Source: Candidatus Methylacidithermus pantelleriae (GTDB taxonomy: Bacteria > Verrucomicrobiota > Verrucomicrobiia > Methylacidiphilales > Methylacidiphilaceae). From it: a stretch of 64,000 nt of DNA. The position numbers and the translations under genes are program-made. The notes beneath the pieces are model-generated. The model did not search any database. It saw only the letters and a list, made by a program, of their open reading frames with translations, and had not been told where the DNA came from. Every line of letters begins with the position of its first letter. The stretch's first letter is position 1. The stretch is from assembly GCF_905250085.1 (NCBI RefSeq), contig NZ_CAJNOB010000071.1, forward strand, positions 1 to 64,000, in the 5' to 3' direction. Below are positions 42,594-54,356 of the stretch, in pieces.

Positions 42594-43074
42594 GACAGGT
42601 GTTACTTGGCTGCCTCAGACGTGTTCTGTCAATAGGGGAACCAACCGGAGCCTTTTCTTTAGGAGAATTGGGAAAACGTTAGCCGCTTGGGGAGGAAGCC
42701 TAGTCAAAGGATGCAGGTTTCGTTCAATACAAAAGTTCCGATCTTCGTGCTAGGCTACGACGGTGCTTGGTGAAAGCCCCTGGGGCACGCTTTTCGGGCC
42801 AAGGCGGGCTGCTTCCGTTCAAGGGCACTGGATTCTAGATGCTCGTGATTGGTCTTCTTGCGCGCGGATCCAGACTTGACTTTTCTCCAAGACCGCAGAT
42901 CTCCCCAATCCTTGTTTCCATGAACGCTTAAGAATCAATCGGGTTTCCTCGGCCCGAAGGCATTGAAAAACTGCCCAAAAAAGGCTTTTTGTCCTTTTTT
43001 CCAGCCGCGGTCTTCCTTGCGTGAAGGTCCTTTTGGGTGCAATTGCGCAACAGCCGGAGACGGAGTGACCGTTA
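42594..43074. other. Gap between methyltransferase and tRNA genes
   Basis: No gene recognised. A T-rich patch at about 43000-43012 (CTTTTTGTCCTTTTTT) lies on the plus strand; the tRNA is transcribed leftward into this region, so its terminator is expected here. Confidence 0.35.
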
Positions 43075-43147
43075 TGGAGGTTGGGGGATTCGAACCCCCG
43101 ACCTTCTCATTGCGAACGAGACGCTCTACCAGCTGAGCTAAACCCCC
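43075..43147 (-). tRNA. tRNA-Ala (anticodon CGC)
   Basis: Reading the minus strand: acceptor GGGGGTT pairs with AACCTCC including the G3-U70 wobble that marks alanine tRNA; D-arm GCTC-AGCTGGTA-GAGC; anticodon arm TCTCG-TTCGCAA-TGAGA with anticodon CGC; variable loop AGGTC; T-arm CGGGG-GTTCGAA-TCCCC type. The discriminator is A and CCA is not encoded. It stands alone next to the accessory region at 43-49 kb and may have served as an integration target. Confidence 0.95.
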
Positions 43148-44774
43148 ACAAGTCGATTTTTACTATTATTCTACTCGGGGCCCGAACCGGGGAAAAGAGG
43201 AAACTCGGGTTTTCTGCCCTTTAAGGGCAGAACATTCAGTTTTCCTCGTAACCTGTGTCGCGGCTATAACCCCCTCCAAGCGCATCGTTTTCGCTTATAC
43301 GAGCGAAACCAGATGGCTCTTGTTTCTAATTCTTTTCCTTTGCATGACCGGTCTTACGGAAAGCACTCTTCGACTGGTCGTAACGTTGGAAGCGATTCGT
43401 CGCGGGCTTTGCTATCAGGCTTGCGGTTTAGGAGCATGGGTTCAATTAAGGTTAGAAGTTGCCTAAAGTTGCTGCTACCAAAAACTACATGCTAGGAAAG
43501 CTAACCTAGTGGGGTTGGGGATCCCTTTATCCCGTGGGTGACGCGACTTGGGCAGAGGCCAATCAGGATTTGGATGAAGCGCCTGGCTTTCCGGAAGGGC
43601 CTACTGCCGGTAGGACATTGGTAGAGTTCCTTCGACCCCAATGAGGATAGCCGATATTCCCTGGCTCTCCAGATAGGTTTCCTAGAGGCCGAAGACTCGT
43701 GGACGATCGAGCCCTGCGAGCCGAGCCGGAGAACACGCGTGGCAAATGTTTGGGTCCGTGTACGGGTTGGTCGATAGCAAAACGGAGTACTTCGAGGAAA
43801 GTCGCCTTCAGCCGAGCCACTAGCTAGTTCTCTTGCCAGGACTGGTCCCCTCGTTTTTCTCGGGATAGACCGAAGAGCTAAAACCAAGCCTCTCCCGCGG
43901 CCTTTCGGGGGTGTCAAGGCTAAGCAAAAGAGCCATTCTGTTGGTCTTATGGCCAAGCAGAAAAGGTTCTAGTGGGTTTGCAAAAAGTCCCGGGGCCAGT
44001 GCGAGTTCCTGGAGGTCTTGACTTCGAATCGGGCAAGCTTAGTCTGGCAGTCCAGACTGCTGCTCGCTACAACCATTTCGGAACGTAGATCCTAAGACTT
44101 GAATCAAGCCGCAATCGCAAACCCGGGGGCCCGCAAAAGTGCGAAAATCCGATTCGAGGCTTGGCGCTCCAGTCTCTAGTGCTTTGCAAAAAGCCAGAAT
44201 GGTTCCGTCTTTGCTCGTGCCTAGACATTGAAAGTATGAGTGTCTCAAAGACGAGTCATTAGTTTGGACCAACAGTGCCTATTAACGGCGCCCTCCCGTT
44301 CCTCAAAGTAAAAAGCTTGACGATCGAGGTCCAAAATCCCTCGCAGTTCCTCCCTCAGGATTGAGGCTCGTACTTGGTCCTAGCAGAAGCTTGAACGTGT
44401 CTTTGTTGCCCGGATGCGCCTTGGGTTTTTTCCTTTTTATCAGTTGGTAGTCCCCATCATGCTTCCCTGGCTCCTTTTTTGTCCTCCTTTAATGTCAGAA
44501 TCGCTTCCGCTGATGTTTGCAGGACCACTTATAGGATGTGGAAGATTTCCGCCGCGCGATGTGCCACAGACTTGTGGTCGCGGTCTATTCTCATGAGACA
44601 TCCTTTCTCCCTTAAGGGGGGATGGCTGAGCTGCTTACTTATGTCTGCTTTTTGCCGGCAAAATGAGCGACTCATTGCTGCGAAACTATTGGAACCTTCT
44701 TTGCGGCAACGAAGATTGGCTGCTTACCAAGATGGTTGAAAAAGACTCGTCACCCCTGGTTCGGATAGGGTAGC
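43148..44774. other. 1.6-kb stretch without recognisable genes
   Basis: Between tRNA-Ala and the translocase-nuclease operon. Short frames on both strands (for example minus 43501-43956, plus 44479-44739) have no recognisable features. It contains the palindrome TTCTGCCC/GGGCAGAA at 43212-43232. The right end should carry the promoter of the following operon. It could hold decayed genes of the island or an RNA gene; neither is demonstrable by eye. Confidence 0.4.
43212..43232. repeat. Inverted repeat 5' of tRNA-Ala
   Basis: TTCTGCCC, five bases (TTTAA) and GGGCAGAA form an 8-bp stem about 65 bases upstream of the tRNA-Ala 5' end. It may be a terminator of an unseen transcript or a binding site. 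Confidence 0.35.
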
Positions 44775-45515
44775 ATGAATTTTGCTGCGGTGAAGGGTGG
44801 AGCTCGAAAAGCATCAAAGCAAAGACTGGTCTCGGATAGCCGGACGCAAATTTTGAGAGCGCTTGAAAGGGCCGGGAAGAAAGGTCTTCCCCGGAGCCGG
44901 CTGGTCCCGTCAAGAAAAAGGGAAATCGACCAGATCCTAAAAGGGCTTCTGGCAGAAGGGAGGATCATCCGGTTTGGCGAGCGATCGAAAGCCGTCTATT
45001 TTTCGAAGGATTTTGCTCCCACGTGTCAAGAGGCGGCCGAGGCTATTGCTCGGGGAGCCGCTCAATTCCCAACCGAACTTTTCCTGGAAAAGGAGCTGGG
45101 CAGTTTCTGCTCGGGTGCACAGCGGTTGCTCCTTAAAGAAGCGGTCAAACACCTTGTCGAGACCGGAATTCTTTGTCGGCTCAAGCGTCGCAAAAGCTTC
45201 TACTACGTCCATCGCGATGGGATCGCGCTGGGATTGGGCCAAAGACAAGCCTGTTTTGATCCCAACAAAGTCGTTCAAGTTTATCAGGAACTTGTGACAG
45301 CACGCGGTTTTCTCTACGTCCGCATTGCTGAGCTTGCTTGGAAAGCGCAGGTCCCGCTGGAACCTCTTCAAGCTTGGCTGCTCGAGCAAAGCAGCATGGG
45401 AAAAGCTCACCTTTCCCGGGGGGACTGGTCGCTCGCAACGCAGGAAGAGCGTAGGGCAGCAATCTATCTTGACGGCCAACCCCATCTTCTCGTGCGGCTC
45501 GAGTCACAGCCATAG
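44775..45515 (+). CDS. Probable winged-helix protein, partner of the translocase-nuclease
   Basis: A 246-residue basic protein of unknown family. The N-terminal part looks like a winged helix-turn-helix: TQILRALERAGKKGLPRSRL, then EIDQILKGLLAEGRIIRFGE and a hairpin ending AVYF. A second similar unit follows (FCSGAQRLLLKEAVKHLVETGILCRL and SFYYVH), and perhaps a third near the end (VYQELVTARGFLYVRIAELAWKAQVPLEPLQAWLLE). Tandem winged helices suggest DNA or protein binding. It is 10 bases upstream of the 1182-residue gene, in the same direction, so the two are co-expressed and probably act together. ATG 44775 is the first start in the frame. Confidence 0.78.
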   Translation: MNFAAVKGGARKASKQRLVSDSRTQILRALERAGKKGLPRSRLVPSRKREIDQILKGLLAEGRIIRFGERSKAVYFSKDFAPTCQEAAEAIARGAAQFPTELFLEKELGSFCSGAQRLLLKEAVKHLVETGILCRLKRRKSFYYVHRDGIALGLGQRQACFDPNKVVQVYQELVTARGFLYVRIAELAWKAQVPLEPLQAWLLEQSSMGKAHLSRGDWSLATQEERRAAIYLDGQPHLLVRLESQP

Positions 45516-45525
45516 CTGGACGACA

Positions 45526-48500
45526 ATGAATCCCTTCTTTTCGCAACGTGTCGATGATCCTTGGGAGATCGAGCCTGCCGTCCCCGGGCTCAATGACCTT
45601 CCCTTGCACACGATTGTTTCGTTTTTCTCTCAACTGAAGCCCGGCCAGCGGCTAGGGCGTGCTCTTGTCGTCGTTTCGCCAGAGTCTGGGTATGGAAAAT
45701 CCCATCTCATCGGCCGATTGTTTCAAGAACTACGAGGAAGAGCAATTCGAGTCTGTCTGCGCCCTTTTGAGGCACCGGAACGCTGCTGGGAGCGGATTCT
45801 CGACCGGATCCTTGCTGAGCTCGCTCGAATCGATCCAACAGCTGCTCGGCCGGGTCGCACCCAGCTGGCGCAATTCGCGGCCTTAACCATTGGGCACTTA
45901 GCGGCGGACCTCTTGGAACAAAAACTTGTAACGGAGATCGCGCTTCCGGCTCGATGGAGAAGCCATTTTGCCGATCTTTGCGTGCTTCTCCGCACCGATC
46001 CTCTCTCCCTTTGGGAGGGACCGGACTCTGAGTCTTGGACCGAGTGGATCAGTCGCCCAGACATCTCAAGTTGTTTTCTTATGGGACTCTGGACGCGAGA
46101 GATCGAACTGAGCTCTCGTAATCCGCACTCCTGGATCAAGGTGTTCCTGGGCTATCTTTCCCATGCAGGCGATCCATATCGGCGTCGTCTCTGCATTGAG
46201 TGGATCCGGGCTACAAGTCTTGATCCAGAAGAAATCGCTTTTTTAAGGCTTTCTCCGGACGATGTTCCGGTCGCGGAATGCCCAGTAGAGGAGTCCGATG
46301 AACGTGCCAAAGAGCGGATCCTCGACCTGTGCCGGCTTGCTCGGTTCAGCTGGCCTTTTGTTTTTTGTTTCGATCAGACAGAAGCTTTCGCACAAGAGCC
46401 GAAGTGGGCTGCAAGATTCGGCTATGTGGTTGCTGAGCTAGTGGATCAGGCTCCCAATCTAATGATTGTCATAGCTGCAAATCAGGAACCTTGGGAAAAG
46501 AGGATCCTTCCCTGGATGGAAGGTGCGTATTCTCGTCGAATGTACCTTAGCCCGGATCTCCACCTTTCAGGAGTAAACGAAAACCAAGCACACCTTTTCT
46601 TGCAGAATCGGCTGCGGCGAGCTGGAGTCGATTCAGAAAGAGCGGAACGTTTCCTTGGGGGCGAGTGGTTTTCTGAACTGTTTCGAAAAGCTAAAATGAT
46701 TGGCATCGGACGTCTCCTTCAGGAAGCCGAAAAACAGTGGGATCGAAAGCCACGGACGCTTTCGCAATGCTACGAAGAAATTCTTGACCGGATGAAGCAG
46801 GAGCGGCCGCCCTTTGATTTGGACGCTCTCCAATGGATTGTCCGCGAAGGGGGTCACTCGCTACCCAGTTGGGAAACGGAAGAGCCTTATCCCGGACGCA
46901 AAAAGCACCTCTTACTTCGGTGGAAGGGAAGAGGAACAAGCGTCGGCTTTGGCTTGGAGAGAAGTTCCAACTGGAGGCGGTGGGAGGCAATTGCTCGGGA
47001 AGCAATGGAGGAAGCAAAAAGACCCACGGGTTGTCAGCGTTTGATCTTTCTTCGATCGTTTGATGAGCCAGCTGTTCCAGGTGAACGCTGGAAATCCAAG
47101 GAGACCATCGACGTTGCTGCCTCGCGTGGCCCGCTACGTATCGTTGTTCTAAAGGAGGATGTGTGGCTTGAATTTGCAGCTTTGCATCACCTGTACACAA
47201 AAGTGCTGGAAGGGGATCTTGAGTTTTCCCGGGACGAAACGCTTGCTTTGGTTCGGGAGAAACTTCGCCCGTGGGCAGAAAAGCTTGTCGCGGGCGTGGG
47301 AAGCCAAGAGGTTGGGACGGACCTCGAGAGGACCGGGCGATCCCAAGAAGTTTGGCAAGTTCTCAACGTTAGCGAGCTAGTCAAGGGTTGTCTTCGGGAA
47401 ACACACGGTTCTCCCTGGGATGCTAGGGAACGGGGTGAGATTTTTCACAAGATCGTTGGAAAGTTTATTCAGTGGCTTTTCCGGGTGGACCCTGATCCAC
47501 AGGATCCAGAAACATACTGGAGAGTTCAGTGGGATCTTGCGAAATCGGAGCTCACCAAGGCTAACGTTGCTCAAGACGTCGAAGAGGTCAGCCGGATAGA
47601 AGCAGCTCTTCGGCAGTTCCACACGAACCTGAAAAGACTGGCTACTTCCGCAGGTGTCTCTGCTTGGAAAGAGCTCTTCGAGGGAACCGAGATTCCCGTC
47701 TCGGGCACCTTTTTATTGCAGAGCGGCCGGTACGTTCGGATTGAAGGACGAGTAGATACCCTGCGGCGCCATCCGAAAGAGGGACGGCAACTGGTTGACT
47801 ACAAGCTTTGCGGGCCCTCGAGCTCGCCCCGTGATCTTTTGCAACTGGCCATTTATGCAGAGCTGTTAGCACAAGATGCCAAGACACGCTCCTTTTCGGG
47901 GATCCTGGAATATTACACTCCTGCGCTGATCGAGCGGAAGGTCTCTCGTGAGGAGCTCCACGCGATCTTTACTGAGCACGTTTCTCCCGTACTGGAAAAT
48001 ATTGCAAAGGAATCTAGGGCAGCTCGTCCTCAGGCGGAGTTAGACACTTATATCAAGGAGACTAGCCGAAAGCTCGAGCAGTTCTATGCGCATCACGGTT
48101 TGGCGGTGAGCTGTGCTTGGACGAACACGATTCGCGCTCCCCAGGTCCTTCGCTTTCGGCTTTCCTGTCCACCAGGTGTACGTGTCGAAAAGCTTCGTTC
48201 CCTGGCTTCTACGTTACGTGTTCAGTTAAGCCTTGATTTTGAGCCATTGATCGAGCCTGCTGCTGGATTTATTGCCGTCAATCTCCCAAATCCGCATCCT
48301 TTTTTGCTTCCATGGGAAGACGCTTATCGGAGAATGCCAGAAGGGTTGGCGCTCCCACTTCTGCTGGGACAAACCATTGAAGGGGAAATCTTGGCCAGGG
48401 ATTTAGCCGATCCCAACACTCCCCATGTGCTTGTGGCGGGAGCTTCGGGGAGTGGGAAAAGCATGTTACTCAAGTGCATTGTTGCAACCTTGTGCAAAGC

Positions 48501-49074
48501 ACTTTCTCCTGAAAGGCTTGAGCTCCTTCTTATTGACCCAAAGATGACGACCTTTCGGCCTTGGGAGGAGACTCCGTACTTACGAGATCGGGGGCTCCTG
48601 ACCGAGATGGACAAAACGCTCGAAGCCCTCAAGGAAACCGTGGACGAAATGGATCAACGTTATCAGATTCTCTGCAGGGAAAGGTTTGAGTCCATAAACC
48701 AGCGAATAGCCGCTGGAAAAACCGACATCCCTTACCGGGTGATCGTCTTTGATGAGTTTGCCGATTGGCTCTTGAAAGCCCGTCGAGTAAAACAACAGTT
48801 TGAGGACAGGATTGCACGCATAGCGCAGAAAGGGCGAGGCGCTGGAATCCATCTGATTCTTGCAACGCAGCGTCCTGAAAAGAATGTGGTCACAGGCCTG
48901 ATCCGTGCCAACTTGCCAGTGCGTATCTGCTTCCGGGTATCCAGTTCGAAAGATTCTGAGATCGCGCTAGGAAAGGGTGGGGGTGAAAAGCTGTTTGGGA
49001 AGGGGGATCTATTCTGTAACCTTGGACCAGGCGGCAACTTTATCCGAGCTCAAGCTCCCTTCTTAGATACCTAA
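45526..49074 (+). CDS. Giant fusion: P-loop ATPase, RecB-type nuclease, FtsK/HerA-type translocase
   Basis: One 1182-residue protein with three parts. Residues 1-420: P-loop ATPase with Walker A SPESGYGKSHL (51-61) and an acidic strand FVFCFDQTEAF (278-288), followed by MIVIAANQEPW. Residues 610-800: PD-(D/E)XK nuclease of the RecB/Cas4 group with GEIFH (637-641), GRVD with Asp743, VDYK with Asp758 and Lys760, and QLAIY (773-777). Residues 900-1182: FtsK-type motor with Walker A GASGSGKSM (972-980), Walker B VIVFDEFAD (1072-1080), LATQRP (1112-1117) and the terminal GGGEKLFGKGD. No FtsK gamma domain or membrane segment exists. ATG 45526 lies 10 bases after its partner gene. Function is inferred: motor-driven DNA processing or defence. 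DptH-type proteins are the nearest concept I know. Confidence 0.85.
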   Translation: MNPFFSQRVDDPWEIEPAVPGLNDLPLHTIVSFFSQLKPGQRLGRALVVVSPESGYGKSHLIGRLFQELRGRAIRVCLRPFEAPERCWERILDRILAELARIDPTAARPGRTQLAQFAALTIGHLAADLLEQKLVTEIALPARWRSHFADLCVLLRTDPLSLWEGPDSESWTEWISRPDISSCFLMGLWTREIELSSRNPHSWIKVFLGYLSHAGDPYRRRLCIEWIRATSLDPEEIAFLRLSPDDVPVAECPVEESDERAKERILDLCRLARFSWPFVFCFDQTEAFAQEPKWAARFGYVVAELVDQAPNLMIVIAANQEPWEKRILPWMEGAYSRRMYLSPDLHLSGVNENQAHLFLQNRLRRAGVDSERAERFLGGEWFSELFRKAKMIGIGRLLQEAEKQWDRKPRTLSQCYEEILDRMKQERPPFDLDALQWIVREGGHSLPSWETEEPYPGRKKHLLLRWKGRGTSVGFGLERSSNWRRWEAIAREAMEEAKRPTGCQRLIFLRSFDEPAVPGERWKSKETIDVAASRGPLRIVVLKEDVWLEFAALHHLYTKVLEGDLEFSRDETLALVREKLRPWAEKLVAGVGSQEVGTDLERTGRSQEVWQVLNVSELVKGCLRETHGSPWDARERGEIFHKIVGKFIQWLFRVDPDPQDPETYWRVQWDLAKSELTKANVAQDVEEVSRIEAALRQFHTNLKRLATSAGVSAWKELFEGTEIPVSGTFLLQSGRYVRIEGRVDTLRRHPKEGRQLVDYKLCGPSSSPRDLLQLAIYAELLAQDAKTRSFSGILEYYTPALIERKVSREELHAIFTEHVSPVLENIAKESRAARPQAELDTYIKETSRKLEQFYAHHGLAVSCAWTNTIRAPQVLRFRLSCPPGVRVEKLRSLASTLRVQLSLDFEPLIEPAAGFIAVNLPNPHPFLLPWEDAYRRMPEGLALPLLLGQTIEGEILARDLADPNTPHVLVAGASGSGKSMLLKCIVATLCKALSPERLELLLIDPKMTTFRPWEETPYLRDRGLLTEMDKTLEALKETVDEMDQRYQILCRERFESINQRIAAGKTDIPYRVIVFDEFADWLLKARRVKQQFEDRIARIAQKGRGAGIHLILATQRPEKNVVTGLIRANLPVRICFRVSSSKDSEIALGKGGGEKLFGKGDLFCNLGPGGNFIRAQAPFLDT

Positions 49075-49232: not shown

Positions 49233-51053
49233 TTATCGTGCAAGCGCAGCTTTGCTTGTGGCCGGGCTTGCGGCAGCCAGGAGCTCTTCCAATAGCTGGG
49301 CATCTGACTGAGAAAGCTCGAAGGCTGCGGTGTCTCCCTCGATGAGGGCGGTTCGGGACCCATTGGCCCCAGGCGGGCTGACGCGCACCGTTACGGGATG
49401 GTTGGTCTGAATGACCAGCCGGTACTGAGGGTTCTCGAGGGAGCTCTGTACTTGGGCCAGTGCCATCCAACGAACTGCCTTCCATTGACACATATGGTCC
49501 AGCTGCGCAGCAAGCTTCTCGGGGCTAACGGAAGAACCGTCGGCGACAAAAAGCCCATTATCCTTCTTGCGAACGTGCACTGACCGGCCATCGGTAGCAG
49601 AAAGCGAAAGGGAACGAATTTCTTCGGGCCGGAACGAAAAAACACTGGGCTTGCGCCATTCCCAGGATTCGTGAGGGAGAACTTTGAGAAGCTCAGAACT
49701 TACGCGGTAAACGAAAGGTTCTAAGGAATTTTTGCAATAAAGATCTCCTTTTTCTTCCTTCCCCACAAAGATGGATAGTCGCTCCGGGGATGACCCTTTC
49801 GAAAACGTTAGCGCCACAGTTGCTGTGGGGGTTTCAAACCCGTAAGAAACCAGTTCTGGCGATGCGCCTTCTACGAAATCCCGCGCTTGAAGATCCCGGA
49901 GGTGAGAAAGCAGGGTCTCTACACGCGCTCCATCTACTTGCGGGTGAGTGGGTGCTTGGACAATCCAACCGTCACCATGTCGAGAAAGCTCCAGAGAGAC
50001 GTTGGAGGTCTTAATTTCCAGTTCTGAAAGTTTATTCCAATCCAATGGGGGCAGGACGTGCCGGTCACGCAATTGCGAAAATCCCTCGAGAATCTCTGTT
50101 ACGGCATTTTTCGATAGGGTGAAAATCCCCGATCCTTTCAGAAGCTTTGCATAAACCTCGTCCGGTTGATCCTTGGTGGCGGAACCAATGAGAAGCGTCA
50201 GACGATTCTTTTCGCCGCCCGAAAGAATCCAGATCTGAGCAGAGGGAGCATCCAAACCGTACGGGGCTAACGCGGCAGGTTCATCAGAGACGAATTTTTT
50301 GACTCGCAGAAGATAGAGACGGTTGAGCCAAGTTTCGACTTGATCTTTATCGGCTCGGCATACCAAAGGCTTTTGAATGCTCCAGCGTTCCCCTATCCGG
50401 CCTACTTCCCATTCCTTCGCTATGCCAGAGGATGGAGCTGCCTGAGTCTCCTGTACGCCAAAACTGCGCACGGTCATTGGGTCGAATTTAAGAACGACCC
50501 GGCTTCGCAAATCATCCAGTTTCTTATTAAGGGCCTCCAGGCTTGACGCATTGATAAGATGCACCGGTGCGGTCCGGGCAAGGGACGCTCGAGCATAGAC
50601 AAGATCGCTGACCGCCGTTTTTCGGCCCACAACCAGAGTATGGACATTAGAATCCGTACGAAATTCCAGGCGCAGCACGGGATTTTCCAGGCCCCATTGT
50701 TTCAGGGTATTCTCCCCGTCTGGTAGCTGTTCGTAACGAATCTTTCTTCGGGTTTGGAGAATCTCTAACTCCATGAGAAGCCGATCCACGGCACTTTCGT
50801 CGGCCTCCGTGCGAATCGGTTCAACAATCAACCACTGGGAACCTTGTCGTTGCAAGGTTATGGTTCCCTGAGCATTGGTGATCCGAAGCCACTGAACTTT
50901 CTCGGGAACGACATCAAAAAGATTTTGTTCCGAGCGCTGGATCTCTTCCGTGGATTTTTGGTGCCGCTCGACAAGATAAATGTAACTAAAGAGCGCAAGG
51001 GCTAGAGTTAAAAGAATCAAGCTCGATCGGAAGTTGTCCCAGGGTGTCCTCAT
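49233..51053 (-). CDS. DUF4340-domain protein of a Gld-type ABC transporter
   Basis: A 606-residue protein with one N-terminal membrane segment (SSLILLTLALALFSYIYLV) and a long extracytoplasmic part made of repeated DUF4340-like units, for example VQWLRITNAQGTITLQRQGS, VRSFGVQE, LSELEIKTSNVSLELSRHGDGWIVQAP (in pieces) and IRSLSLSATDGRSVHVRKKD. Each unit has the pattern of a beta strand, QGSQWLIVEP-type Trp motif and a helix. Such proteins accompany GldG-type proteins in ABC-2 transporters. The start codon overlaps the stop of the GldG-like gene as ATGA, so translation is coupled. Last gene of the operon 54356 to 49233. Confidence 0.85.
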   Translation of the reverse strand: MRTPWDNFRSSLILLTLALALFSYIYLVERHQKSTEEIQRSEQNLFDVVPEKVQWLRITNAQGTITLQRQGSQWLIVEPIRTEADESAVDRLLMELEILQTRRKIRYEQLPDGENTLKQWGLENPVLRLEFRTDSNVHTLVVGRKTAVSDLVYARASLARTAPVHLINASSLEALNKKLDDLRSRVVLKFDPMTVRSFGVQETQAAPSSGIAKEWEVGRIGERWSIQKPLVCRADKDQVETWLNRLYLLRVKKFVSDEPAALAPYGLDAPSAQIWILSGGEKNRLTLLIGSATKDQPDEVYAKLLKGSGIFTLSKNAVTEILEGFSQLRDRHVLPPLDWNKLSELEIKTSNVSLELSRHGDGWIVQAPTHPQVDGARVETLLSHLRDLQARDFVEGASPELVSYGFETPTATVALTFSKGSSPERLSIFVGKEEKGDLYCKNSLEPFVYRVSSELLKVLPHESWEWRKPSVFSFRPEEIRSLSLSATDGRSVHVRKKDNGLFVADGSSVSPEKLAAQLDHMCQWKAVRWMALAQVQSSLENPQYRLVIQTNHPVTVRVSPPGANGSRTALIEGDTAAFELSQSDAQLLEELLAAASPATSKAALAR

Positions 51054-52510
51054 TGCCGTCGCGAAACCCACATGCTTATTCCTGCCAAAAGTGCGATTCC
51101 CGGAAAAACAGTAAGAGCCAAAGAAGCGACCAGGAGTTTTTGCTGCGGGGTAAGGCTCAGTCGAAACTCTTGGGGAGTTTTCGGCGTGATCCCGAGAGCT
51201 AGTTCTCTTTGGGTCATCCAATTGACAAGGTTAATGAAAAAGTCAACTGCCACCCCGTCGAGGTTTTGGTTAGCCAGAAAGGACGAAGATCCGATCGCAG
51301 CGATCCTCGCCCCGGCAACGCGTACATTTTGTCCTGGTAACCGCCCTCCATCGTATACCATCGCTAGCGTGAGGGGACCCGCGATATCCTTCCCTGAATC
51401 GAACTGCGGATTTTTTTCTTCCGAGTCTGTTTCTCCCCAGAAAGCCTCGGGAGCTCGGACAAGCCAGGTTGTTTTGGAAGCGTTGGGCGAAGAACTTGCG
51501 GCCAACGACCGAGCGTTTGGCATTTGGAGATTATAGCCGGAAAGGCTCCGAACGGCGGGATGATCTCCAAAAGAGTTCCCGGTAGCCACGCTCACCAATA
51601 CTTCCCCTTTGAGCCCCACAATCCTACCTCGGGCTACGACGATATCGTTGTGAAACTGGATGCCATATTTTTCCAGTAACGGTTCCAGACCTGAAACTTC
51701 TCTGGCTCCTTCCAACACAATGAGTTTCCCATTGGCTTCTAGGTAGGATCGGATAGCCTCCACTTCCGAAGGTTTTAAGGGAACCTTGGGGCCCGCGATG
51801 ATTAAAAGATCCGCATCCTTGGGAACGGATCCCGTTACCGCAAGGTTGAGTACTTCGGTCTCCATGTTTTCCCGGCGCAAACGAAGCTCGATTTCCCCGT
51901 ACCCACCTGCATCGGTAAAGTTAATGGCACGTTCCCCGTGACCGGTCAGAAAATAAACCTTGGCGGGTTTTCCTTCTACCAGCGATTGAATTGCACTGGT
52001 AAACTGTTGCTCGCCTTTGAACGCCTTAATCCTGGGTGCCTGTCCGAGAAAGCCTCCGGTCACATCGTATTCGACCAGTTCAGCTTCATCCACGAACTTC
52101 GTTTTGCCTTTATACTCAAAAATGATGACGTTTTCGCGAAGATCGAAGTTATATTTTTTTGCCAGTGCCTCTGCCCGATCCAAATCCAGCGCCGGGTCTA
52201 CATGCTCGACGACCAATTTGTCCTTGCCCCGGTACTGGTATTCTCGAAGGAGATTGTCAATTTCAGAGCGAAGGTTGGAAGTTGCCAGGCAAACAAATAC
52301 GTGGACCGGCTGCGGGAGAGATTCCAGGAGATGAATGGTTTTTTCTGAAAGACGGTAGTATCCACTTTGTGAAAAATCCTTTCTCCAGTAGTAACGGAAG
52401 CCCAGATAGTTGATCATTGCCGCGATGACCGTCGCCAGTACCACCGTAAATGCCGTATTCCACCGCAGCTGGTGCCGAAGAGGCCGTGCGAGAAGAGCGT
52501 TCGATTCCAT
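51050..52510 (-). CDS. GldG-like ABC transporter auxiliary protein
   Basis: A 486-residue protein with membrane segments at both ends (FTVVLATVIAAMINYLGFRYYW at about 20-41, LLVASLALTVFPGIALLAGISMW near the C-terminus) and a large periplasmic part between: SQSGYYRLSEKTIHLLESL, VHVFVCLA, ENVIIFEYKGKTKFV, KVYFLTGHGE, DADLLIIAGP and LIVLEGA are the segments of the GldG/ABC-auxiliary family. GldG was described for gliding motility and lipid or protein export in Bacteroidota, but homologues occur widely with unknown cargo. GGAGG stands six bases before ATG 52510. Third gene of the operon. Confidence 0.9.
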   Translation of the reverse strand: MESNALLARPLRHQLRWNTAFTVVLATVIAAMINYLGFRYYWRKDFSQSGYYRLSEKTIHLLESLPQPVHVFVCLATSNLRSEIDNLLREYQYRGKDKLVVEHVDPALDLDRAEALAKKYNFDLRENVIIFEYKGKTKFVDEAELVEYDVTGGFLGQAPRIKAFKGEQQFTSAIQSLVEGKPAKVYFLTGHGERAINFTDAGGYGEIELRLRRENMETEVLNLAVTGSVPKDADLLIIAGPKVPLKPSEVEAIRSYLEANGKLIVLEGAREVSGLEPLLEKYGIQFHNDIVVARGRIVGLKGEVLVSVATGNSFGDHPAVRSLSGYNLQMPNARSLAASSSPNASKTTWLVRAPEAFWGETDSEEKNPQFDSGKDIAGPLTLAMVYDGGRLPGQNVRVAGARIAAIGSSSFLANQNLDGVAVDFFINLVNWMTQRELALGITPKTPQEFRLSLTPQQKLLVASLALTVFPGIALLAGISMWVSRRQ

Positions 52511-52523
52511 GATGGCCTCCTTT

Positions 52524-53273
52524 TTAGTCCGCCAGCCTGCGCCAGACGAGCGCGCGCTCCGTCAGAAATAGGAAAAGGAAGGTAGCGGTTACGTAGAGAA
52601 CCACGGGCCGCGAATCAAAAACGCCTCGGGAAAAGGCGTCCATCTGATCCAGGAAGGAAAGATAGGTAACGATTTCCCGTGTGCTACTCCCCACGCCTAA
52701 GTAGACGAGGAAACTGGACGAGAAGACCAAAAAAATGGCTGCGAAGGCTAAAATTGCCGCGATCACCTGGTTCCGAGTGAGGGAAGAGCAGAAAAGGCCG
52801 ATCGAAATAAAGAACATGCCAATGAGGCATAGGAGGAAAAAGGGAAGCAACGTCATTCCGGTTCCAATTCCCAGGGGCTGAGCATTGACCCATCGAAGAA
52901 TGCCAAGGCAAAACGGAAGCGGCGTCCACAACACAAGAAAAAAGGTGAACGTGGCAAGGAACTTGGCCGCCACGACCTCCCATTCGGTAATTGGGGCGGT
53001 CAACAAAAGCTCAATGGTTCCTAGCTTGTACTCCTCGGCAAAAGAGCGCATGGTAATCAGAGGGACTTGGATGAGAAGTAAAAACCAGAAGAAAAACGCG
53101 TTGGTACAGGCTTGTAGGATGTTGAAGTCGCGCGTGTTGCTATAGGTTAAGTAATAGAGCCAGAAGGTGAAACTTGCTCCATTAATGAGAGAACAAGCAA
53201 AAAGGACAAGATAGGCAACAGGAGAAACAAAAAAGGCCTTAAGTTCCCGCCGGTATTGAATCCAAGTTTTCAT
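52524..53273 (-). CDS. ABC-2 type permease (GldF-like)
   Basis: A membrane protein of 249 residues from ATG 53273, with six hydrophobic segments. It starts KTWIQYRRELKAFFVSPVAYLVLF and has MRSFAEEYKLGTIELLLTAPITEWEVV split over the cytoplasmic loop, the family signature of GldF-type permeases. The frame continues upstream to TTG 53390, which has AAGG nearby and directly follows the ATPase stop, so a longer N-terminus of 39 residues is possible. Second gene of the Gld operon; the ATPase is upstream, the GldG-like gene 13 bases downstream. Confidence 0.9.
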   Translation of the reverse strand: MKTWIQYRRELKAFFVSPVAYLVLFACSLINGASFTFWLYYLTYSNTRDFNILQACTNAFFFWFLLLIQVPLITMRSFAEEYKLGTIELLLTAPITEWEVVAAKFLATFTFFLVLWTPLPFCLGILRWVNAQPLGIGTGMTLLPFFLLCLIGMFFISIGLFCSSLTRNQVIAAILAFAAIFLVFSSSFLVYLGVGSSTREIVTYLSFLDQMDAFSRGVFDSRPVVLYVTATFLFLFLTERALVWRRLAD

Positions 53274-53399
53274 GGACCAAAGACTTCCGAAGATCTGGCT
53301 TCCTACTTTCCCTGCAATCTTGTCTCCTTGATGGGACCCTTCCGCTCGTTGCGTGTCCATGAGCCTGTGCCCCCCAGAGCTCTGGGCCAAGCTGCCTTC

Positions 53400-54356
53400 T
53401 CAGTCCTGCGTTAGCTCGACAAACACATCCTCTAGGGAAGCACGCTGTCGGCTCATCTCGCGGAGTCGCCATCCTTTCTGTCGCACGACGTCGAAGACCT
53501 GATCGCGGATATCCTCTCCCGGTTTGGCAAAAAGCTGAAGTGTTACCCAGGAATCTTTCTCATCCACGACCTCAACTTCTTCGATTCCACTAATCTCCTC
53601 TAGGAGTCGCGACGCTTCCTCCCGCATTGCCTGGATTTCCAGGCGCAAACACCCACTCCCTCCTCCTCGCACTAAGCGGCTTAAGTTTTCCGGCGTATCG
53701 GCCGCTTCAATCCGGCCCTTATGGATAATGAGGACACGAGAACAGGTGGCCTCCACCTCGCTAAGAATGTGGGTTGAAAGAAGAACGGTGTGTTTTTTGC
53801 CGAGTTCCCGGATGAGGTCACGTACGCTGCGAATCTGGTGTGGGTCAAGCCCGATCGTTGGTTCGTCTAGAATCAGCAAGTCCGGGTCATGAATAAGAGC
53901 ATCCGCTAGGCCCACCCGTTGCCGAAAACCTTTGGAAAGTGCGCCGATCCCGCGGTGCCGAACCTCTGCTAGTTGGCATACCTCACAAACAATAGCCACC
54001 CTTTCGGCCAATTGCTTCTTGGGTACTCCCTTGAGGCGAGCCCGGTACTCGAGGTATTCCTCCACCCGCATGTCCGTGTAGAGCGGAACGTTTTCTGGCA
54101 TGTATCCCACGTGGCGTCGCACGGCCAAAGGGTTTTCGACGACATCATACCCGGCGACTCGGACCTTCCCATCGGTAGGAGGCAGGTAGGCGCAAAGAAT
54201 CCTCATCGTTGTTGTCTTGCCGGCACCATTTGGCCCCAGAAACCCTACCACTTCGCCTCGAGTCACTTGAAAGCTGATCCGATCCAATACCACGCGCCCG
54301 GCGTAAGACTTGGTAAGCTGCTCGACTTCAATCATGGGCTCTGCGGTTGTTCCCAT
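53400..54356 (-). CDS. ABC transporter ATPase (GldA-like)
   Basis: A 318-residue ATPase. Walker A FLGPNGAGKTTTMRIL, Q-loop region YMPENVPLYTDMRVEEYL, signature LSKGFRQRVGLADALI, Walker B LLILDEPTIGLDP and H-loop STHILSEVE. About 90 residues follow the nucleotide-binding domain, a regulatory extension common in GldA and related ABC-2 ATPases. It energises the permease and GldG-like proteins encoded downstream. First gene of the operon, divergent from parA. Confidence 0.93.
   Translation of the reverse strand: MGTTAEPMIEVEQLTKSYAGRVVLDRISFQVTRGEVVGFLGPNGAGKTTTMRILCAYLPPTDGKVRVAGYDVVENPLAVRRHVGYMPENVPLYTDMRVEEYLEYRARLKGVPKKQLAERVAIVCEVCQLAEVRHRGIGALSKGFRQRVGLADALIHDPDLLILDEPTIGLDPHQIRSVRDLIRELGKKHTVLLSTHILSEVEATCSRVLIIHKGRIEAADTPENLSRLVRGGGSGCLRLEIQAMREEASRLLEEISGIEEVEVVDEKDSWVTLQLFAKPGEDIRDQVFDVVRQKGWRLREMSRQRASLEDVFVELTQD

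Follow-up and report, generated by a model that had tools for sequence, protein, structure and literature searches.

A fused two-gene operon of Candidatus Methylacidithermus pantelleriae that probably belongs to the predicted HerA/FtsK capture systems

Operon layout and protein domains

The window is a 64,000-nucleotide stretch of contig NZ_CAJNOB010000071.1 of Candidatus Methylacidithermus pantelleriae. It contains two genes with ATG start codons, which encode proteins of 246 and 1182 amino acids (Table 1). The open reading frames coincide exactly with the two same-direction genes, 10 nt apart, described in the initial annotation. The start codon of the large gene agrees with its homologues, whose N-terminus also reads MNPF. 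In a genome of the same family, G002, the small and large genes overlap by 4 nt. Homologues with identical domain order exist at approximately 60% and 30% identity, and the dN/dS values of 0.10-0.32, where dS is unsaturated, indicate purifying selection on the domains. A chance arrangement of open reading frames is therefore excluded.

The neighbours of the operon in the window are housekeeping-like (an ABC transporter, a DUF4340 protein, and a tRNA) and do not form a defence island. The gene of tRNA-Ala(CGC) is positioned in the interval 42700-44770, approximately 2 kb immediately upstream of the operon, which contains little convincing coding sequence and no further RNA families. Directly downstream, the opposite strand carries a cluster of ABC transporter genes together with those for DUF4340 and ABC_transp_aux proteins. 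The cluster is present in all 13 genomes of the family, and in the six relatives inspected it continues into other genes without the operon. A search for mobile-element boundaries around the operon identified only short, unconvincing repeats.

Table 1 Positions of the operon, its domains and motifs, and its neighbours in the window
Feature	Position	Strand	Basis
tRNA-Ala(CGC)	43074-43148	-	
Small protein, 246 aa	44775-45515	+	ORF; neighbour of ATPase gene across relatives
Fusion protein, 1182 aa: AAA ATPase, middle domain, PD-(D/E)XK nuclease, FtsK-alpha, FtsK motor	45526-49074	+	ORF; domain searches
N-terminal AAA ATPase, aa ~1-410	45526-46755	+	Weak AAA_16/AAA_22 matches; motifs invariant in alignments
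ATPase Walker A SPESGYGKS, aa 51-59	45676-45702	+	Alignment
ATPase Walker B-like CFDQTE	46366-46383	+	Alignment
Middle domain, aa ~440-615	46843-47370	+	Profile matches in full-length homologues
RecB/Cas4-type PD-(D/E)XK nuclease, aa ~624-836	47395-48033	+	PDDEXK_1, E = 7.4e-14
Nuclease H motif (GEIFH)	47434-47457	+	Alignment
Nuclease D motif (GRVD)	47746-47763	+	Alignment
Nuclease DxK motif (VDYK)	47791-47808	+	Alignment
Nuclease QxxxY motif (QLAIY)	47842-47856	+	Alignment
FtsK-alpha, aa 836-922	48031-48291	+	PF17854, E = 1.4e-6, above curated cut-off
FtsK/SpoIIIE motor, aa 943-1182 (Pfam match 943-1117, extends to C-terminus)	48352-49071	+	PF01580, E = 4.8e-34
Motor Walker A	48436-48462	+	Sequence motif
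Motor Walker B VIVFDEF	48739-48759	+	Sequence motif
Motor sensor ATQRP	48862-48876	+	Sequence motif
ABC transporter cluster with DUF4340 and ABC_transp_aux proteins	49233-54356	-	

The large protein had been described as an ATPase, a PD-(D/E)XK nuclease, and an FtsK-type motor in one chain, and domain searches identify all three. Profile searches, of the kind suggested in the initial annotation, yielded AAA_16 (weak), PDDEXK_1 (E = 7e-14), and FtsK_SpoIIIE (E = 4.8e-34). A fourth domain, located between the ATPase and the nuclease, had been overlooked.

The match of the N-terminal ATPase to AAA_16 is weak (E = 4e-4), and similarly weak matches to AAA_16 and AAA_22 occur in seven and six of nine homologues, respectively. 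The whole protein of the relative G601 scores 42 bits against AAA_16, with the best stretch inside the ATPase. KAP and BrxC/D match weakly in a cyanobacterial (Pseudanabaena) relative, and a profile search of the PDB with the ATPase identified nothing significant. The Walker A motif is intact, and an almost invariant FDQTE replaces the usual DE of Walker B. A similar DQFEE occurs in nSTAND1-type switch ATPases, which would fit a function of the domain as a switch and not a motor. The domain may be an Orc/CDC6-STAND-like AAA ATPase, in which the Orc/CDC6 label, derived from the weak AAA_16 and AAA_22 matches, is tentative.

The middle domain has no database match and was identified by profile in the full-length homologues. 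It is a candidate inactive restriction endonuclease (REase) domain followed by a helical or winged-helix part. Its low-confidence fold predicted without an alignment (pLDDT 54.2) has an order of strands and helices compatible with an REase, and a structure search of the PDB with this model identified nothing below E = 0.26.

Relatives of the N-terminal part also occur alone. A stand-alone protein of 650-690 amino acids related to the ATPase is encoded in other genomes of the family (L036-L041; for example, L041:9266-11290), nearly all of which have it in a conserved place near uvrA-like and citrate synthase-like genes. It was not found in the genome from which the window is derived. Plasmid pOB3b1 of Methylosinus trichosporium OB3b contains a fragment (L025:12001-12774) matching residues 367-590 of the query, in the ATPase and middle domain, beside an IS6 transposase. 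The fragment is perhaps a truncated alphaproteobacterial copy.

The window protein and nine homologues all retain the full RecB/Cas4 motif set H, D, DxK, and QxxxY, in agreement with the nuclease type assigned initially. Together with the PDDEXK_1 match, the complete set predicts an active nuclease of the REase fold. FtsK-alpha and the motor both score above the cut-off, and no gamma domain follows the motor. Relatives of the motor in the PDB include FtsK (2iuu) and others.

The 246-residue protein has no Pfam match. Reading of its sequence suggests that it is probably composed of three tandem winged-helix domains; folded without an alignment, it has a helix-hairpin pattern at low confidence (pLDDT 38.7). 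The small gene is kept beside the ATPase gene in the family genomes G001, G002, G005, G007, G009, G011, and G012 and likewise in G033, G083, G091, G147, G470, G502, and G601. The initial annotation regarded the protein as a recogniser. The role of a DNA-binding partner fits this co-conservation, and the winged-helix assignment is derived from the sequence reading and the low-confidence fold. The protein is predicted to be a DNA-recognition or adaptor subunit.

Distribution and variation among relatives

Homologues were searched for in overlapping sets of 98, 388, and 384 genomes, representing relatives, phylum, and class, and outside the phylum in plasmid, phage, and viral collections and in one contig scan with the window protein. 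Across the three genome sets, the fused two-gene form is found complete and with an FtsK motor only in the family of the window, Methylacidiphilaceae (Verrucomicrobiota), where seven of the 13 genomes contain the long form. It is kept in G000, G002, G005, G009, and G012; the copy of G011 is split over two contig ends, and in that of G007 the motor frame is interrupted. In G001 (L034:7051-10044) the nuclease domain is absent, and the frame is open through the ATPase and FtsK motor. Only remnants were found in G003, and no copy in G004, G006, G008, or G010. Phage records match through the FtsK motor alone, and one scan of viral contigs identified only an FtsK-domain relative. The one relative from the contig scan with the window protein (L004) was rejected as a homologue of the operon, as it looks like an ordinary cellular FtsK.

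The location of the operon is variable. Homologues of the same domain order occur in the family, and their neighbours mostly differ between loci, with a shared place only within one genus. A modification gene was not among the neighbours shared by the operon loci.

Other Verrucomicrobiota also encode the small protein and the ATPase-middle domain unit, usually in a set of three genes for the small protein, the ATPase, and a nuclease-motor protein. The products have 461, 710, and 623 residues in G147 and 241, 695, and 615 residues in G502; G100 contains a more distant three-gene match. In Pseudanabaena sp. PCC 7367, the conjugative plasmid pPSE7367.01 encodes a distant three-gene relative (266, 680, and 688 residues; L135:7630-12589). 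The third protein of this relative scores as PDDEXK_1, FtsK_alpha, and FtsK, and its 266-residue upstream product has no profile match to the small protein. These three-gene relatives indicate that the ATPase and the nuclease-motor part are probably functional partners. In the plasmid copy, cysteines around the nuclease motifs possibly form a Cas4-like cluster, and the three genes adjoin a pair of genes for an SNF2 helicase and a SWIM protein.

The motor differs among the relatives and may be FtsK, HerA, RuvB, or none. In G033 the third protein is a nuclease with a HerA motor. This locus directly precedes Cas3g, near the type I-G gene csb2/Cas5-6. In G091 (L042:4510-7926), one chain contains a related ATPase, a RecB/Cas4-type nuclease, and a RuvB-type AAA motor. 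The G091 motor has the RuvB C-terminal winged helix, and a small-protein homologue is located just upstream. In G601 (L129:7506-10607), the ATPase, middle domain, and FtsK are fused in an open frame without the nuclease. G601 groups in the tree with the split G147, and its fusion is therefore probably independent of that in the window, which suggests that the fusion arose twice.

The third gene of G083, and likewise that of the closely related G470, encodes a short nuclease-like protein with no motor after it. The nuclease motifs are broken in G083, as they are in G037, and the nuclease match of G470 is weak. Judging from these sequences, the nuclease is deleted or inactivated several times among the relatives. 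Its absence from G001 and G601 implies that cutting in cis is not essential in every version. The versions with a missing or dead nuclease may be either decaying copies or systems in which pumping alone has an effect.

It is conceivable that the operon encodes a housekeeping machine for DNA-end processing or chromosome dimers, of the HerA-NurA or FtsK kind, which serves repair. A nuclease combined with a hexameric pump is the principle of HerA-NurA, and RecB/Cas4-like motifs belong to a family common in repair. However, such a function is unlikely, because the operon is absent from four of the 13 family members and most of the class in the genome searches, copies are repeatedly decayed or without a nuclease, their position is unconserved, one is carried by the conjugative plasmid of Pseudanabaena, and the host retains a separate FtsK of its own on contig C45.

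The variable locations and plasmid carriage would also fit an operon that belongs to a mobile element or plasmid and aids the transfer or segregation of that element by an addiction or DNA-packaging function, and FtsK and HerA motors occur in transfer systems. The probability of this explanation is small, since genes for an integrase, a relaxase, or replication were not seen as recurring neighbours of the operon, the flanks differ between loci, and most copies were found on non-plasmid records.

Proposed function in the capture of invading DNA

Among the predicted anti-invader systems, the operon can probably be assigned to the HerA/FtsK capture class, as a fused member with two genes. Most likely it pumps invading DNA and cuts it independently of DNA modification. 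The docking site of the three-winged-helix protein would be DNA or a feature of the invading DNA. The N-terminal AAA (Orc/CDC6-STAND-like) ATPase would read the docked protein and, by a nucleotide-dependent switch, license or load the complex. The FtsK motor may then encircle the duplex DNA as a hexamer and pump it, and the RecB/Cas4-type nuclease, tethered just ahead of the motor, would cut the incoming DNA. A DNA-modification partner would be unnecessary. We infer the anti-invader role, the hexamer, the order of the steps, and the sensed feature.

The self-contained DNA machine envisaged in the initial annotation gains support from the co-conservation of the small gene, the split partners, the patchy distribution, and the lack of a shared modification gene; that it acts in defence is what we infer. 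The patchy and position-variable distribution, the copy on a conjugative plasmid, the G033 locus beside type I-G genes, and again the lack of a shared modification gene speak for an anti-invader function. The housekeeping-like neighbours in the window, the weak Orc/CDC6 matches, the tentative label of the inactive REase, and the nuclease missing from G001 and G601 speak against the assignment to the capture class.

In a more far-reaching scheme, which is doubtful, a fixed core of the three-winged-helix sensor and the AAA switch ATPase would be combined with exchangeable FtsK, HerA, or RuvB motors and an optional nuclease. The motor alone could then be the effector, and self would be distinguished from non-self by the state of the DNA and not by chemical marks. 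The natural variants would allow the contribution of each part to be told apart: G001 and G601 lack the nuclease, G083 has a dead one, and the motor is exchanged for HerA in G033 and RuvB in G091. Since everything is contained in one chain of 1182 residues and one small partner, the version from the family of the window comes close to a minimal set for expression, assays, and imaging.

Comparison with known systems

The SspFGH system pairs a Walker-A protein with a protein ending in FtsK and is accompanied by the sspBCD modification genes (PMC8092258). The operon likewise has an FtsK/SpoIIIE motor at the C-terminus of its large protein, and SspFGH also resembles it in having a Walker-A protein, a separate one. 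In the profile comparison, the N-terminal approximately 1400 residues of SspH did not align. SspH is the best PADLOC match of the operon (E = 7e-64). Together with the shared pairing of Walker-A and FtsK-ended proteins, this match would be expected of a phosphorothioate restriction module, SspFGH or DndFGH, acting on DNA without the sulfur mark. However, such an identity is highly improbable. SspH aligns to the window protein over residues ~843-1182 only, which is the motor region, and its model also matches in eight of 14 control genomes, presumably cellular FtsK. SspF and SspG have no profile similarity to the operon proteins (hhalign probability 3.3% and 0.1%), nor does the 246-residue protein resemble the SspB profile. 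No SspD match was found in the host genome, in a search without a positive control, and no sspBCD genes were seen adjacent to the operon. In the motor tree, in which several deep branches are poorly resolved, the motors of the operon and its relatives branch apart from SspH and the host FtsK, and the SspH motors group with cellular FtsK.

Similarly to DndFGH and DptFGH, the operon combines a nuclease followed by a HerA/FtsK motor with a probable winged helix-turn-helix (wHTH) subunit. However, its proteins are much shorter and differently fused, and no Dnd modification genes were seen. PADLOC and NCBIfam scans of both proteins identified no DndF, DndG, or DndH family match, which led to the rejection of this identity; a DndG-family search, which was silent everywhere including the controls, has no bearing on it.

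The operon shares the principle of pump and nuclease with HerA-NurA and HerA-based defence pairs, and its relative G033 has a HerA motor. It differs from HerA-NurA in that its motor scores as FtsK, its nuclease is of the RecB/Cas4 type (scoring as PDDEXK_1, with no match to the NurA family) and is part of the same chain, and an extra AAA ATPase is present.

The mad8 profile of MADS matches the operon motor (E = 6.5e-27), and mad3 matches weakly. MADS, whose full gene set includes a methyltransferase, was also rejected, as only the motor matches mad models and the ATPase and middle domain match none. BREX-related capture (BRC) systems contain HerA/FtsK, an Orc/Cdc6 ATPase, and a wHTH protein. 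Unlike in MADS and BRC, no methyltransferase, PglZ, or other BREX protein matches or adjoins the operon.

The HerA/FtsK capture systems were predicted by Rakesh, Aravind & Krishnan 2024 (section 22; PMC10853773). They are composed of an Orc/CDC6 ATPase, an inactive REase positioned between the ATPase core and a wHTH, an active REase from one of two families, and HerA/FtsK, in some cases with FtsK-alpha, distributed over single or multiple polypeptides (PMC10853773). A subset has an extra multi-wHTH gene, which encodes a DndG-like protein with two to four wHTH domains (PMC10853773). The class is so far a prediction of comparative genomics, and no experimental test of it was found in the literature searched, which covered few subscription journals. 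The operon differs from the published description (PMC10853773) in that its Orc/CDC6 and inactive-REase labels are weakly supported, and the RuvB-type motor of its relative G091 is absent from the section on the class. The AAA ATPase, the domain preceding an active PD-(D/E)XK nuclease, the FtsK motor with FtsK-alpha, and the separate predicted multi-wHTH gene all correspond to the capture systems (PMC10853773). The view in the initial annotation that the operon stands outside the known systems is not supported, as this parts list matches the class almost exactly. By its predicted domains, the operon appears to add a new member, in a compact one-chain form, to a class already defined by computation.
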